From: Nitrospirales bacterium
GTDB lineage: Bacteria; Nitrospirota; Nitrospiria; Nitrospirales; UBA8639
Assembly: GCA_020027535.1 (NCBI GenBank)
Contig: JAHRAK010000125.1
Span: 1-37,697, forward strand
Direction: 5' to 3'
Length of the DNA stretch: 37,697 nucleotides
Of this stretch, positions 9,586-37,262 are shown piece after piece. Within the stretch, counting starts at the first letter, position 1. Every line of letters starts with the position of its first letter. The notes under the pieces were generated by a model. The model was not told where the DNA came from. It was given only the letters and a program-made list of their open reading frames with translations, and ran no database searches. A program made the translations under genes and the position numbers.

Positions 9586-9624
9586 GGACGTCAGCGCAGA
9601 CTTTCAATAGGTCGCCCACCGTAA

Positions 9625-11490
9625 ATGGAACTGCTCCGATCTACTGACGAGCCTCTTCGTCTTCTCCGGACCGTCTTCGGGCATTCTTCTTTTCGTTTGC
9701 GCCAGGAGGAAGTGATTGATGATCTGCTGGCCGGCAGGGACGCCATGGTCCTGATGCCGACGGGCGGGGGCAAATCGTTGTGTTACCAGGTGCCGGCCAT
9801 GATGCGTGACGGGGTAGGCGTCGTGGTGTCGCCCCTGATCGCGTTGATGAAGGATCAGGTGGACGCGCTCCGCCAGTGCGGGGTACGGGCGGCCTGCCTG
9901 AACTCCACCCTGGACTTTGAGGAGGTACGGGCGGTGGAAGCGGCGGTGAACGGCGGGAAGCTGGATTTGCTCTACGTCGCGCCGGAGCGCCTGCTGCAGG
10001 AGCGTACCCTGGAATGGCTGGATGCGCAAACCATCGCCTTGTTCGCCATTGACGAAGCTCACTGCGTGTCGCGCTGGGGGCACGACTTCCGCGAAGAGTA
10101 TTTGCAGTTGTCGGTGCTGCACGAACGGTATCCCTCGGTCCCGCGCATCGCCTTGACGGCCACCGCCGACCATGCAACCCGTCGAGAAATCATCACCCAA
10201 CTGCAACTGGAAGAGGCCAATGCCTACGTCCACAGTTGTGACCGTCCCAACATCCGCTACGCCATCTCCGACGACGATAACGGGCGCGAGCGCCTGTGGC
10301 GTTTTCTGCAAAGCGAGCATCCTGCTGACGCCGGCATCGTCTATTGCCTGACGCGCAAAAAAGTGGAGGAGACCGCCGAGTGGCTGCGCGCCCGTGGGCG
10401 TGACGCGCTGCCTTACCACGCGGGTCTTTCGGATCACACGCGCCGCCGGCATCAGGAGCGTTTCCTGCGCGAAGATGGTGTGGTGATTGTCGCCACGGTT
10501 GCGTTTGGTATGGGCATCGACAAACCGGACGTGCGTTTTGTCGCCCACCTCAGCCTGCCGAAGAGCATTGAGGCTTATTACCAGGAAACGGGGCGTGCCG
10601 GCCGCGACGGCCTGCCGGCCAGCGCGTGGATGAATTACGGCTTGAGGGAAATCATCATCTTTCGCCAGTGGCTGTCCGAGTCCGAAGCCGACGCGGCGCA
10701 TAAGCGGGTAGAGCATCAGAAACTGGAAGCCATGGTGGGCCTGTGCGAACTCACCACCTGCCGCCGTCGTGCCATCCGCGCCTACTTCGGCGAAGAGCCG
10801 GGAAAAGCCTGCGGCAATTGCGACAACTGCGTGGACCCGCCGCAGACCTGGGACGGCACCGAGGCCGCGCGGAAGGCCATGACCTGCGTCTCCCGCACCG
10901 GCGAACGCTTCGGCGTGAATTACCTGGTCGACGTGCTCATCGGTAAGGACCATGCACGTATCCGCGACTGGCGCCACGACCGATTGGAAGTGTTCGGCAC
11001 CGGCGCGGAGCACACCGCCACCGAGTGGCGCTCCATTTTTCGCCAGCTCATTGCCCAGGGCTGTCTCCGGGTGGACGCCGAGCGTTTCGATGCCCTGCGC
11101 CTGACGGAAGAATCGTTCCCGGTGTTGCGCGGTGAGCGTGGGTTGACCCTGCGTCGATTGCGGCGTGCCGTGGCGGTGAAAAAAGGAAAGGTTGCCGTGA
11201 CCCATGCGCCGCTTGCGCCAACCGACGAAGCTCTGTGGCAGGCTTTGCGGAAGGCGCGTACGGCCCTGGCCCGGGAGCAGGGGGTGCCGCCTTATGTCGT
11301 GTTTCACGACACGACCCTGCGTGAGTTGGTGCGGCTCAAGCCCCTGAAACGGGAAGACATGGAGCGAATCCAAGGTGTTGGTGAGCATAAACTGAGGAAA
11401 TATGGCGAAGCTTTTTTACGGGTCGTGCGGGAACATGTGCCGGCGGAGTGTGAGGATCAACCGAAGGATCTTGGCTTGCCGAGTTCGTGA
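9625..11490 (+). CDS. recQ: ATP-dependent DNA helicase RecQ
   Basis: FRLRQEEVIDDLLAGRDAMVLMPTGGGKSLCYQVPA, DEAHCVSRWGHDFR, ATVAFGMGIDKPDVRFVAH, CRRRAIRAYFGE...CGNCDNC, C-terminal HRDC-like region. Confidence 0.93.
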   Translation: MELLRSTDEPLRLLRTVFGHSSFRLRQEEVIDDLLAGRDAMVLMPTGGGKSLCYQVPAMMRDGVGVVVSPLIALMKDQVDALRQCGVRAACLNSTLDFEEVRAVEAAVNGGKLDLLYVAPERLLQERTLEWLDAQTIALFAIDEAHCVSRWGHDFREEYLQLSVLHERYPSVPRIALTATADHATRREIITQLQLEEANAYVHSCDRPNIRYAISDDDNGRERLWRFLQSEHPADAGIVYCLTRKKVEETAEWLRARGRDALPYHAGLSDHTRRRHQERFLREDGVVIVATVAFGMGIDKPDVRFVAHLSLPKSIEAYYQETGRAGRDGLPASAWMNYGLREIIIFRQWLSESEADAAHKRVEHQKLEAMVGLCELTTCRRRAIRAYFGEEPGKACGNCDNCVDPPQTWDGTEAARKAMTCVSRTGERFGVNYLVDVLIGKDHARIRDWRHDRLEVFGTGAEHTATEWRSIFRQLIAQGCLRVDAERFDALRLTEESFPVLRGERGLTLRRLRRAVAVKKGKVAVTHAPLAPTDEALWQALRKARTALAREQGVPPYVVFHDTTLRELVRLKPLKREDMERIQGVGEHKLRKYGEAFLRVVREHVPAECEDQPKDLGLPSS

Positions 11491-32866: not shown

Positions 32867-34222
32867 ATGGTTGAAGTTCCTATCAAATTGTATATTCAGG
32901 GTCTTGCCAAACAAGCCAATGCCGCGACTCGTGCCCTGTCGTTGATGACGGGGCATGACCGTGCCTTGGCCCTCAGAGCCATGGCGGAACAGTTGGAAGC
33001 GAGCATGGAAGACGTATTGGCGGCCAATCAACAGGATCTCGATGCCATTCCTAAGGAACGGGGGATGGAGGAGTATCGGAAAGCGAGAAAACAGATATCC
33101 GTGACGGAAGAAAATCTTCTCGATCTCGTCGCCTTTATTCGTGGGATTGCGGAGGAACCTGATCCCACGGGCGAAGTGTCGCAGGGCTGGGTGACGCAGG
33201 AAGGTTTGCAGATTCATCGGGTTCGTGTCCCTATCGGGGTGATCGCCGTCATTTCCGAATATGGTCCGTCCGTGGTCGCCGAATCGTTTGCGATGTGTCT
33301 CCGGTCGGGAAACGTGTGTGTGGTGCGGGGCGGCAAGGAATGGTTTGCGACCAATGCTGCAGTGGCCAAAGTCTTGCGTGATACGGCGGAACAACACGGC
33401 GTCCCTCAGGGGGCTCTCACGTTTGTGGATCGCCCCGACCGTGAGGGCGTGCTTGAATTGACCCGATTGCGAAACATGGTTCACGGCGTCGTTCCCAAAG
33501 GAAAAGCGAGCTTGCGCAAAGCCGTGATGGAGCAGTCCCGGGTCCCGGTCTTGGGGTATGACGGCGGAGTGTGTCACGTCTACGTCGATAAAGAGGCGGA
33601 CGTGCCGTTGGCTCAAGGGATCGTGGTGAATTCCAAGATTCAGGATCCGTTTGCCACCAATGCCGCCGATACGGTGTTAGTCCATCAGGCCATCGCACGG
33701 CAGTTGCTGCCGGGCCTGCTCCGGCGATTGCTCAGTGAATTTACGGTGGATCTTATCGGCTGTCCGAAAACCATCTCCATGATGGGAATCATGGCCATGA
33801 CCGGGCATAAGGGGATTCGAGCAGCCACGGACGAGGATTGGGAACAAAAGAGGCAGTCCCTGACCCTGGGAATTAAAGTCGTCAAGGATCTCGACGAAGG
33901 CATTGCACACATTGCGGCCTTTGGGCCGGGGCATACCGATACCATCGTGACCCGTCAATATGAAACCGCGATGCGATTCGTCCGGGAAGTGGATTCCGGC
34001 TCGGTGTTGGTGAATGCTTCGACCCGCTTGCATTCAGGGCCGCAAATGGATTTGGGCGAGGAACTGGGAGTGAATACAGCTCATTTCCACGTGAGAGGGC
34101 CGTTGACGCTCCGATCCCTGACGACTGAAAAATACGTCGGGTTTGGATCCGGCCAATTACGACAGCCTCATCCCGTTCCTCAGGCCTACGAAGATGCGAT
34201 GATGTTATCGGCGAAATTCTAG
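32867..34222 (+). CDS. ProA-like glutamate-5-semialdehyde dehydrogenase homologue lacking the expected catalytic Cys
   Basis: VRVPIGVIAVISEYGPSVVAESFAMCLRSGNVCVVRGGKEW; GVCHVYVDKEAD; FVREVDSGSVLVNASTRLHSGPQMDLGEELGVNT; NSKIQDPFATNAADTVLV at the active-site segment. Confidence 0.85.
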   Translation: MVEVPIKLYIQGLAKQANAATRALSLMTGHDRALALRAMAEQLEASMEDVLAANQQDLDAIPKERGMEEYRKARKQISVTEENLLDLVAFIRGIAEEPDPTGEVSQGWVTQEGLQIHRVRVPIGVIAVISEYGPSVVAESFAMCLRSGNVCVVRGGKEWFATNAAVAKVLRDTAEQHGVPQGALTFVDRPDREGVLELTRLRNMVHGVVPKGKASLRKAVMEQSRVPVLGYDGGVCHVYVDKEADVPLAQGIVVNSKIQDPFATNAADTVLVHQAIARQLLPGLLRRLLSEFTVDLIGCPKTISMMGIMAMTGHKGIRAATDEDWEQKRQSLTLGIKVVKDLDEGIAHIAAFGPGHTDTIVTRQYETAMRFVREVDSGSVLVNASTRLHSGPQMDLGEELGVNTAHFHVRGPLTLRSLTTEKYVGFGSGQLRQPHPVPQAYEDAMMLSAKF

Positions 34223-34275
34223 GAATTTCGTCGAATTCTCTCTTCCAACGGGGCCCACGGCCCGGTTTCGCGCTC

Positions 34276-35718
34276 ATGGCCAAATTGGACATTGCCCGGC
34301 ATCTTGCCGCATGGGGACTTCGCGGGTTTTCCGATGAAGATTCCTATTATGCCTGGCAACGACAATCCTTATCCGGAGAGCAACTTCGGCTTCTTCAGCA
34401 AGCGGTTCAAACCCGTCACGAAGGAGGGGACGCGGATCAGGAATTTTATGATCTGGCGGCATCCCCAGACGTTCTTCCTGTTTTATACAGCCAGCGATAC
34501 GGCTACTATCACGTGCTCGGCCCCGCGATCGCGGACGTGCTGGAAGCCGGGCAGCAGGTTTTGGACGTCGGGTGCGGGGTCGGGATTCTCACGACCTGGT
34601 ACGCGACCTGTTTCCCTGACGTGACGTTTCTGGGTATTGATCGGTCTCTGAAATCGATTGAAGTGGCGCGGCGGTTTGCTCAATCGGTTCATCTCGAGAA
34701 CGTGAGCTTTCGCCATTGCGAAATGCCTCAAGACGAGATCCCCTGGACATTTGATACCATCGTGTCCACTCAGGCTCTTTTTCAATCGGAATCCGATCCG
34801 GGGCTTCCGAGTCGGAGTTGGACGACCTTTGAACGTGATCGGGATACACGGCAACAACGGAGTCTGGAAGAGAGGACGGGCATCGGTCTTCGTTTGGACC
34901 GGCTGTTGCAAGTGCTGGCTCCCTCGGGCCGGTTCGTGTGCTTTGAAAAGGCCGTTCACCTGGGAAGACGCGTGTTGTTCCAGCGGGCCTTGGAATCGAG
35001 AGGGTGTGTTCCGGTTGCGGATCCGCGGTTGCTGACGTATTCAGAACTCGGGGAGCCGGTTGAGGAGGGGCCTTTGTACGTGATGAAACGAGGTGCCGTT
35101 TTTCCTGCCGTGGCGTTACGGGAGGACGTGCGACCTGATCCGCAACAGGGGGTGTATCGTTGCCAAGGCACCCATGCGGATTTCGTGTATGCCAAGTTGA
35201 CGAAAAATGACACGCATTCGGAAAAGGTGGTTGAGAAGTTCGGAGACAAGAATGGCTGGCACGAAACGGGACGAACGGGTGGGGGGTTGGGCTATGTCCG
35301 TCTCATGATTCATGCGACGTTTTCGGGTCTTTTGGTTGGAGCGATGGAATTGCAGCCCCTGATGGTTGATCTTGTCAGGCATGAACTGAAACAAGGCCGA
35401 GAGCCTATCGAGACTCGCCTGATACGTATCTGGCCGGAACAGGAGAGCGGTCCACTCGAAGAGACTCCTCTTTATGAAAACCATTTTCCTGTGGCCGAGC
35501 AGGTGTGGCAACAGCTTCCGGATCGGGTGGTCCTGCGAGAGCAGACCGACGAGGAAGCGGATGGGCGACAACGGCACATCGAATACGGGCGCTGTGCCGG
35601 AAATCTCCATTACCTGTATTGGGCGAATACCTTTGATCAACGGCAAATCGTGATCATGGAGCAGGAGCGAAGCGCCCTCTTGGAGACCTATTATTCCGAA
35701 GCAACCGGTGAGCGATAG
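34276..35718 (+). CDS. SAM-dependent class I methyltransferase with an unknown C-terminal domain
   Basis: VLDVGCGVGILTTWYATCFPDVTFLGIDRSLKSIEVARRFA; ~200-aa C-terminal region not recognised. Confidence 0.8.
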   Translation: MAKLDIARHLAAWGLRGFSDEDSYYAWQRQSLSGEQLRLLQQAVQTRHEGGDADQEFYDLAASPDVLPVLYSQRYGYYHVLGPAIADVLEAGQQVLDVGCGVGILTTWYATCFPDVTFLGIDRSLKSIEVARRFAQSVHLENVSFRHCEMPQDEIPWTFDTIVSTQALFQSESDPGLPSRSWTTFERDRDTRQQRSLEERTGIGLRLDRLLQVLAPSGRFVCFEKAVHLGRRVLFQRALESRGCVPVADPRLLTYSELGEPVEEGPLYVMKRGAVFPAVALREDVRPDPQQGVYRCQGTHADFVYAKLTKNDTHSEKVVEKFGDKNGWHETGRTGGGLGYVRLMIHATFSGLLVGAMELQPLMVDLVRHELKQGREPIETRLIRIWPEQESGPLEETPLYENHFPVAEQVWQQLPDRVVLREQTDEEADGRQRHIEYGRCAGNLHYLYWANTFDQRQIVIMEQERSALLETYYSEATGER

Positions 35719-36024: not shown

Positions 36025-36066
36025 ACCCCCTCACCCTGCCCTCTCCCTCTAGGGGAGAGGATTTAA
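36025..36066. repeat. CCCCCTCACCCTGCCCTCTCCC...GGGGAGAGG repeat copy
   Basis: accccctcaccctgccctctccctctaggggagagg; abuts the stop codon of the 36063-37262 gene. Confidence 0.7.
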
Positions 36067-37262
36067 GTGGTGCGTTTGTCGTCGATTTCCCCGGCCAGCG
36101 CATTCAAAACCCCGAGTGCCTGTTCACTGAGTTCGGCCGTTTGTTCATCGGGTTGGTGGGCGGGGAGTGCATCGTCTTTGGATTTTGGTCTTGTGGTTTT
36201 GAGGAGTTCTTCTTCGAGCTCATCCAGCGTAGGTTCGGAGTCGGATTGGATGGCAAACAACCGCTGCAGGGCAAAGATGGCCCGGGCATGGCTGTGCCAG
36301 GGCCCACTATGTTCACTGTCATGAACGCGAGTGATCAGTTGCCAAAAGCCCGATTCGGCTGTTTCAGGTATGGTGCCGTCCGCCAAGGTCTTGAGTTTTT
36401 CAATCAGCGCCTCTTCCGTTCGCTCAATGCCGGGGATGAAGGTGACAATCGAACGCTGAGTGGGCCGTCTGGAAAGAACGCGTAGCGTCTCTCTCCAGAG
36501 ATCCGGGTACGCTTGCTGAGAGCCTGATGACGCCGATTCTTCATCGAGTTTTGCCTGGAGAGCCGTGATGTATTGGGTTAACGCCTTGACCTTTCTTGCG
36601 GAAAGGCTTCCCAGCGGAATTCCCCAAATATGAGCGACTTCGTGATCCTGCAGGGAGGAGATCCCCGAGAGTTCATACTCCTGCTCGGCATTTTTCAGTC
36701 GCCGTCGTTGCCGTTCACGTCGTCGGAGCAGGGTCTGATATTCAACAAGCAGCCGTTCGCGGTGAAAGTCGTCTTCGGAGATTTCTTCTTGTTCCAAGGT
36801 GCGGTCCAACCGTCGGATTTCCGGTTTCGGGAGTGCGGATACGGCCGTTTTTTTGCGTTCCTTCAACTCCGTCCGGTCAACCTGAAATTTCGAAGTGAGC
36901 AATCCTTCAGCCGCCAGAATGGTTAAATCGGCCAGAGCTATTTGCTTTTTTAGGTATTCGACCTGGAGCCAGGGACGTTCGCGTTTTTGACGAAGAAACC
37001 CGCTGTATTGTCCGATTCGCCCGGTGACCTCATGGATAGCAGCCACAAGCGAGGTTCTTTTCTTGGGTTGATCCCCGGCCATAAAACGAGAGTCCGGCTG
37101 ATCCTCCACGATAAATTGAATATCCTCTTCAGACGGTTCCAGGTACTGAAGGAGGAGCAGGCGGACCATGATCCGGCTTTGTACGGGAAGCGTCTCAATG
37201 ACGGTTTCGATGAGTTCAAACGTGAGCGGCGAATGAGTGATGGCTGTGGTCATGTTCGTCAC
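36063..37262 (-). CDS. Hypothetical protein, charged/coiled-coil-like central region
   Basis: 399-aa ORF; start overlaps the upstream ORF stop (ATGA-type coupling). Confidence 0.75.
   Translation of the reverse strand: MTNMTTAITHSPLTFELIETVIETLPVQSRIMVRLLLLQYLEPSEEDIQFIVEDQPDSRFMAGDQPKKRTSLVAAIHEVTGRIGQYSGFLRQKRERPWLQVEYLKKQIALADLTILAAEGLLTSKFQVDRTELKERKKTAVSALPKPEIRRLDRTLEQEEISEDDFHRERLLVEYQTLLRRRERQRRRLKNAEQEYELSGISSLQDHEVAHIWGIPLGSLSARKVKALTQYITALQAKLDEESASSGSQQAYPDLWRETLRVLSRRPTQRSIVTFIPGIERTEEALIEKLKTLADGTIPETAESGFWQLITRVHDSEHSGPWHSHARAIFALQRLFAIQSDSEPTLDELEEELLKTTRPKSKDDALPAHQPDEQTAELSEQALGVLNALAGEIDDKRTT

Follow-up and report, generated by a model that had tools for sequence, protein, structure and literature searches.

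Gene organization of the locus

The stretch of DNA analysed here (the window) comprises 37,697 nucleotides of contig JAHRAK010000125.1 of a Nitrospirales bacterium (GenBank assembly GCA_020027535.1). Two neighbouring genes in the window are the subject of this study.

32867-34222, forward strand: ProA paralogue lacking the catalytic Cys, a candidate dead ProA of 451 aa, identified by its NF001221 and TIGR00407 scores
34276-35718, forward strand: co-conserved partner gene, lying downstream of the paralogue in the same orientation at 101 of 101 loci; its 480-aa product is a SAM-dependent class I methyltransferase whose C-terminal domain(s) are of unknown family

The ORF of the paralogue begins with ATG and encodes 451 aa without a frameshift in the window sequence, in agreement with an initial annotation of this DNA, which had described the gene as intact. 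The encoded protein passed the cut-offs of both NCBIfam equivalog models for ProA, scoring 402.4 bits with NF001221 (cut-off 289) and 322.4 with TIGR00407 (cut-off 317.45). Because these curated cut-offs are passed, automatic annotation would designate the protein an active glutamate-5-semialdehyde dehydrogenase, and Nitrospirales genomes would seem to hold two ProAs. The predicted structure, of moderate confidence (pLDDT 78, with a poor region at residues 386-411), best matched 1o20 (E 1.7e-39) and 8zok. The paralogue is a full-length homologue of ProA (PDB 1o20, 8zok, 4ghk) with the same fold and 34-37% structure-aligned identity.

Loss of active-site residues in the paralogue

Comparison with canonical ProA revealed substitutions at the following positions.

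33656-33658, forward strand: Thr264 (ACC) at the nucleophile position, equivalent to C598 of Drosophila P5CS by ungapped alignment; Ser, Ala, Thr or Pro in 96 distinct relatives
33263-33265, forward strand: Gly133, an invariant Arg (ESRPNV motif) in canonical ProA; Arg in 87 of 87 canonical proteins with a residue there and in 0 of 96 paralogues
33848-33850, forward strand: Lys328, an invariant Glu in canonical ProA; Glu in 88 of 88 canonical proteins, and Lys, Gln or Pro in 96 of 96 paralogues
34034-34036, forward strand: Ser390, aligned with D715 of Drosophila P5CS by an ungapped match in which residue 369 corresponds to chain residue 694; Asp in 4 of 96 paralogues

The codons at 33653-33661 read GCC ACC AAT, of which ACC specifies residue 264. 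The initial annotation proposed that Cys had become Thr at this residue, and ungapped alignment to solved ProA/P5CS chains confirmed the change. Residue 264 aligned to the Cys of the E. coli, T. maritima, Burkholderia, human and plant proteins. Residues 238-276 matched residues 572-610 of the Drosophila P5CS chain (7f5t_A), again without gaps, so that residue 264 corresponds to C598, which has been named as the catalytic residue (PMC8963878). Cys occupied the nucleophile position in all 88 canonical ProAs compared. It was absent from the paralogue and from 96/96 relatives, which had Ser (40), Ala (30), Thr (14) or Pro (12). Misreading of a Cys codon was ruled out, since these distinct homologues come from independent genomes. 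Site 264 is thus free to vary; the term "Thr-type" used in the initial annotation understates this variation and was too narrow.

The occurrence of Ser, Ala, Thr or Pro in relatives indicates that Thr264 is not a substitute nucleophile; a stand-in role of Thr or Ser was ruled out by Ala or Pro in 42 of the 96 proteins. C144, C151 and C299 are invariant or nearly so in the paralogues. They occur equally in Cys-intact Nitrospirales ProA, so none of them is a replacement, and migration of the nucleophile to another Cys was rejected. No paralogue-specific Cys was found elsewhere in the protein when it was compared with Cys-intact Nitrospirales ProA. Thus, Thr264 falls on the catalytic Cys of the solved structures, and no other Cys takes over.

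Unlike ProA, the paralogue also lacks the invariant residues R133, E328 and D390. P5CS R712 and D715 are reported to bind gamma-glutamyl phosphate (PMC11061531). The equivalent of R712 (R387) is kept, whereas that of D715 is lost: position 390 was Asp in 88 of 88 canonical ProAs, and mostly Ala, Ser or Gly in the paralogues. R387, N265, K257 and G212 are common to ProA and the paralogue, and R154 is kept in all paralogues with one exception. At the NADPH site, R154, G212 and K/R146 are retained. The residue aligned with P5CS R525, which contacts the NADPH adenine, is Lys, Pro, Arg or His, and cofactor binding by the paralogue is accordingly uncertain; the loop containing R525 is reported to be less conserved in GPR enzymes (PMC11061531). 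Five other residues (W159, R217, D268, H314 and P354) are invariant specifically in the paralogue clade. These comparisons suggest that the substrate site has been dismantled and the scaffold partly preserved. The GGKE, GxCHVYVD and VNASTR motifs, which the initial annotation described as kept, are indeed present in the window protein; however, the Cys of GxCHVYVD drifts to Thr or Ser clade-wide. In the segment directly after VNASTR, an Asp that is invariant in canonical ProA has been lost across the paralogue clade.

The paralogue further differs from ProA in an extra, invariant C-terminal tail.

34166-34219, forward strand: paralogue-specific C-terminal tail PHPVPQAYEDAMMLSAKF, past the end of canonical ProA; P434, H435, P436, P438, Y441, D443, A444 and M446 invariant

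In the paralogue alignment the tail consists of 18 residues (PHPVPQAYEDAMMLSxKF), eight of them invariant.

Linkage of the paralogue to a methyltransferase gene

Unlike ProA, the paralogue is linked to a methyltransferase gene and not to proline genes, and it coexists with a true ProA. Clustering of the neighbouring genes at 40 loci revealed one gene family common to all of them, downstream of the paralogue on the same strand, and this arrangement was found in 101/101 loci once further genomes were added. The initial annotation recognised the paralogue but overlooked this linked gene. The gap between the two genes ranged from 6 to 285 bp (median 121), and a range of this width makes no case for tight translational coupling. 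The paralogue is carried by two Nitrospirales families, termed here f1 and f3; families f2 and f4 are without it. The partner is the only neighbour common to f1 and f3, and the remaining neighbourhood differs by family. In f1, rpsB-tsf-pyrH-frr lies upstream of the pair. In f3 loci L099-L109, genes observed near the pair, on the other strand, encode G6PD, a 6PGD-like dehydrogenase and a beta-eliminating lyase. The partner profile scored at least 410 bits in f1 and f3 and at most 66 bits elsewhere in the phylum, a distribution identical to that of the paralogue.

The partner contains a SAM-binding Rossmann domain with the D.GCG motif (D97, G99, C100 and G101 invariant). It shares this domain and the D.GCG.G motif with class I SAM-dependent methyltransferases (Pfam Methyltransf_31), and its fold is near that of DnrK-type O-methyltransferases. 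Unlike the known members, it scored below every NCBIfam cut-off shown, and its methyltransferase core is preceded by a long helical extension at the N-terminus and followed by an additional C-terminal domain in one or two copies.

35149-35397, forward strand: first copy of the C-terminal alpha-beta4-alpha domain, absent in f3; based on secondary structure and on hhalign to the second copy
35464-35715, forward strand: second copy, universally kept (ENH...DGRQ.H.E.G...YLYWANTFDQRQ); one per genome and, within the order, only in f1 and f3

Homology between the two tandem domains, each of ~80 residues, was supported by hhalign (E 1e-6, prob 91). Partners from f3 hold one copy, and it is the second that is kept in both families. 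Searches of Pfam and PDB found no sequence relative of this domain, and a whole-chain fold search matched the methyltransferase core only.

Nitrite oxidation was considered as the reason for the distribution of the gene pair, and a simple tie was rejected: an NxrB-like beta subunit (best match to TIGR03478, below that cut-off) is present in f2 genomes lacking the pair, besides f1 and f3. A weak terminator-like hairpin at 34208-34234, with twelve pairs and a T-rich tail, overlaps the stop codon of the paralogue; a folding scan of relatives found no conserved terminator. Downstream of the pair, the reverse-strand ORF at 36063-37262 (399 aa) had no Pfam match; at about half of the 40 loci a relative of it (cluster 8) occurs close to the pair.

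Distribution and evolution of the paralogue

A second, Cys-containing proA, for which the initial annotation had suggested a search, is present in the same assembly. It encodes a canonical ProA with STCNAMETLLV (C122:2601-3857, on contig C122), and proB lies on contig C87. The assembly is a draft of 140 contigs with 100% completeness and 3.3% contamination. In the tree, the canonical copy falls among those of its genus, indicating that it is not foreign. The paralogue and canonical ProA are ~45% identical and always co-occur in f1 and f3.

Among 60 relatives, all f1 and f3 genomes yielded a full-length paralogue apart from two assemblies of poor quality, G027 (64% complete), which gave no match, and G031, which gave fragments only; the 12 f2 and f4 genomes had canonical ProA only. 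When 246 evenly sampled Nitrospirota genomes were searched with the paralogue profile, the protein was detected in 78/78 f1 and f3 genomes and in 0/168 others. Seventy-seven of the 78 scored at least 687 bits and the remaining one was cut by a contig end; other Nitrospirota peaked at about 486 bits, the score of ordinary ProA. Family f3 probably corresponds to the classical Nitrospiraceae. One locus (L045, JACZVJ010000093.1) is titled "Nitrospinota bacterium"; its paralogue agrees in score and motifs with that of an f1 genome of Nitrospirales (G015), so the title looks mislabelled.

In the phylogenetic tree, the Cys-less paralogues grouped in a single clade with support 100, whose sister group was the canonical ProA of f1 and f3, and branching within the clade followed the families. 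These relationships indicate that a single old duplication took place and that inheritance has since been vertical. Median dN/dS over 91 genus-level pairs was 0.119 for the paralogue vs. 0.073 for canonical ProA. The paralogue is therefore under purifying selection, and is slightly less constrained than the enzyme. This selection, together with the 96 distinct Cys-less homologues, ruled out sequencing error and decay.

Proposed role of the paralogue

Duplication, residue loss, conservation and strict linkage to the methyltransferase gene are all evident at the sequence level. We propose that the paralogue is a ProA-derived pseudoenzyme that serves the methyltransferase as a non-catalytic subunit, an explanation to which we give about an even chance of being correct. 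According to this proposal, proA was duplicated in the common ancestor of the two Nitrospirales families, and one copy stayed the proline enzyme. In the other, the nucleophilic Cys disappeared together with parts of the site for gamma-glutamyl phosphate, but the ProA fold was retained; this copy acquired the conserved C-terminal tail and became fixed beside the uncharacterised SAM-dependent methyltransferase. It would no longer reduce gamma-glutamyl phosphate, and may bind the methyltransferase via the tail and/or an oligomerisation surface, thereby activating it or presenting a substrate or ligand, as HisZ acts on HisG.

The initial annotation had suggested a repurposed, non-dehydrogenase ProA or pseudoenzyme rather than decay. 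The second ProA, monophyly, purifying selection, universal retention and further residue losses all favour that suggestion, and the paralogue probably has no ProA activity. As expected of a pseudoenzyme, the catalytic residue has been lost clade-wide while an active-type paralogue persists, and the gene has been kept under purifying selection. ALDH16A1, a human pseudo-aldehyde dehydrogenase of the ALDH superfamily, is without the catalytic Cys and is regarded as a pseudoenzyme (PMC10650815). It shares this loss with the paralogue; however, it is eukaryotic, belongs to a different subfamily and has no methyltransferase pairing, whereas the paralogue clade is bacterial and ProA-derived.

The closest functional analogy is HisZ, the regulatory subunit of the short-form ATP phosphoribosyltransferase. 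HisZ is a dead HisRS paralogue that activates HisG, and formation of their complex is proven (PMC10795190). Like the proposed pseudoenzyme, it is a paralogue of an amino-acid enzyme that is catalytically inactive and serves another enzyme. In the Nitrospirales loci the partner enzyme is encoded alongside and co-inherited; this genetic side of the analogy is the weaker one. Unlike HisZ, to which it is not homologous, the ProA paralogue is only presumed to form a complex. The paralogue presumably acts together with the methyltransferase and, as HisZ does for HisG, would most likely serve it as a partner without catalytic activity, although the linkage could result from shared regulation instead of a complex. 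A more specific proposal, which we hold tentatively, is a two-subunit methyltransferase system specific to Nitrospirales, in which the new-family domain of the methyltransferase would dock to dead ProA, the latter being an essential scaffold or ligand-sensing subunit (e.g. for NADP(H) or a glutamate/proline intermediate).

The main alternative is a new, Cys-independent enzyme activity. Having lost ProA chemistry, the paralogue would act on, e.g., an imine, alcohol or pyrroline-like compound and would share a short pathway with the methyltransferase, whose presence fits a biosynthetic step. Retention of K257, N265, R387, G212 and R154 counts against our proposal to the extent that it is also compatible with an altered enzyme, and the clade-specific invariants W159, R217, D268, H314 and P354 point the same way. 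The ALDH-like fold tolerates Cys-free oxidoreductases, of which histidinol dehydrogenase is an example. However, the old catalytic site contains no paralogue-specific conserved acid/base or nucleophile, residue 264 being Ser, Ala, Thr or Pro; the counterpart of the NADPH-adenine contact varies; and no further pathway gene is linked in both f1 and f3. We consider such an activity possible but rather doubtful. Regulation of canonical ProA/ProB is unlikely. A dead copy could tune proline synthesis by entering mixed ProA oligomers or by competing for gamma-glutamyl phosphate, and this would suit the oligomerisation of ProA and the constant co-occurrence of the two related proteins. Linkage to the methyltransferase rather than to canonical proA or proB argues against it, as does loss of the G5P-binding Asp in the case of substrate competition, and the universal partner would be left unexplained.

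It is very improbable that the paralogue has remained a gamma-glutamyl phosphate reductase in which Thr/Ser or another Cys serves as the nucleophile. Both equivalog cut-offs are exceeded and Cys144, Cys151 and Cys299 are conserved, but these Cys residues are shared with the intact enzyme, site 264 is often Ala or Pro, and R133, E328 and D390 are gone as well. A decaying duplicate, an assembly chimera or a sequencing error might be suspected in a draft of 140 contigs; the intact ORF, purifying selection, vertical phylogeny and the inclusion of single-contig genomes among the 96 homologues make the chance of this negligible.

Neither a Cys-less ProA nor this ProA-methyltransferase pair was described in the open-licence full-text literature searched. 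The pseudoenzyme proposal describes a clean case in which an ancient metabolic duplicate lost its nucleophile and was then retained in every near-complete f1 and f3 genome sampled, and the linked methyltransferase with its undescribed domain provides a ready, directly testable functional hypothesis.

Elsewhere in the window, two long ORFs on opposite strands overlap fully. The reverse-strand ORF (9604-11388), for which Pfam gave no match, is probably spurious; the forward-strand ORF (9625-11490) encodes a RecQ-type helicase.
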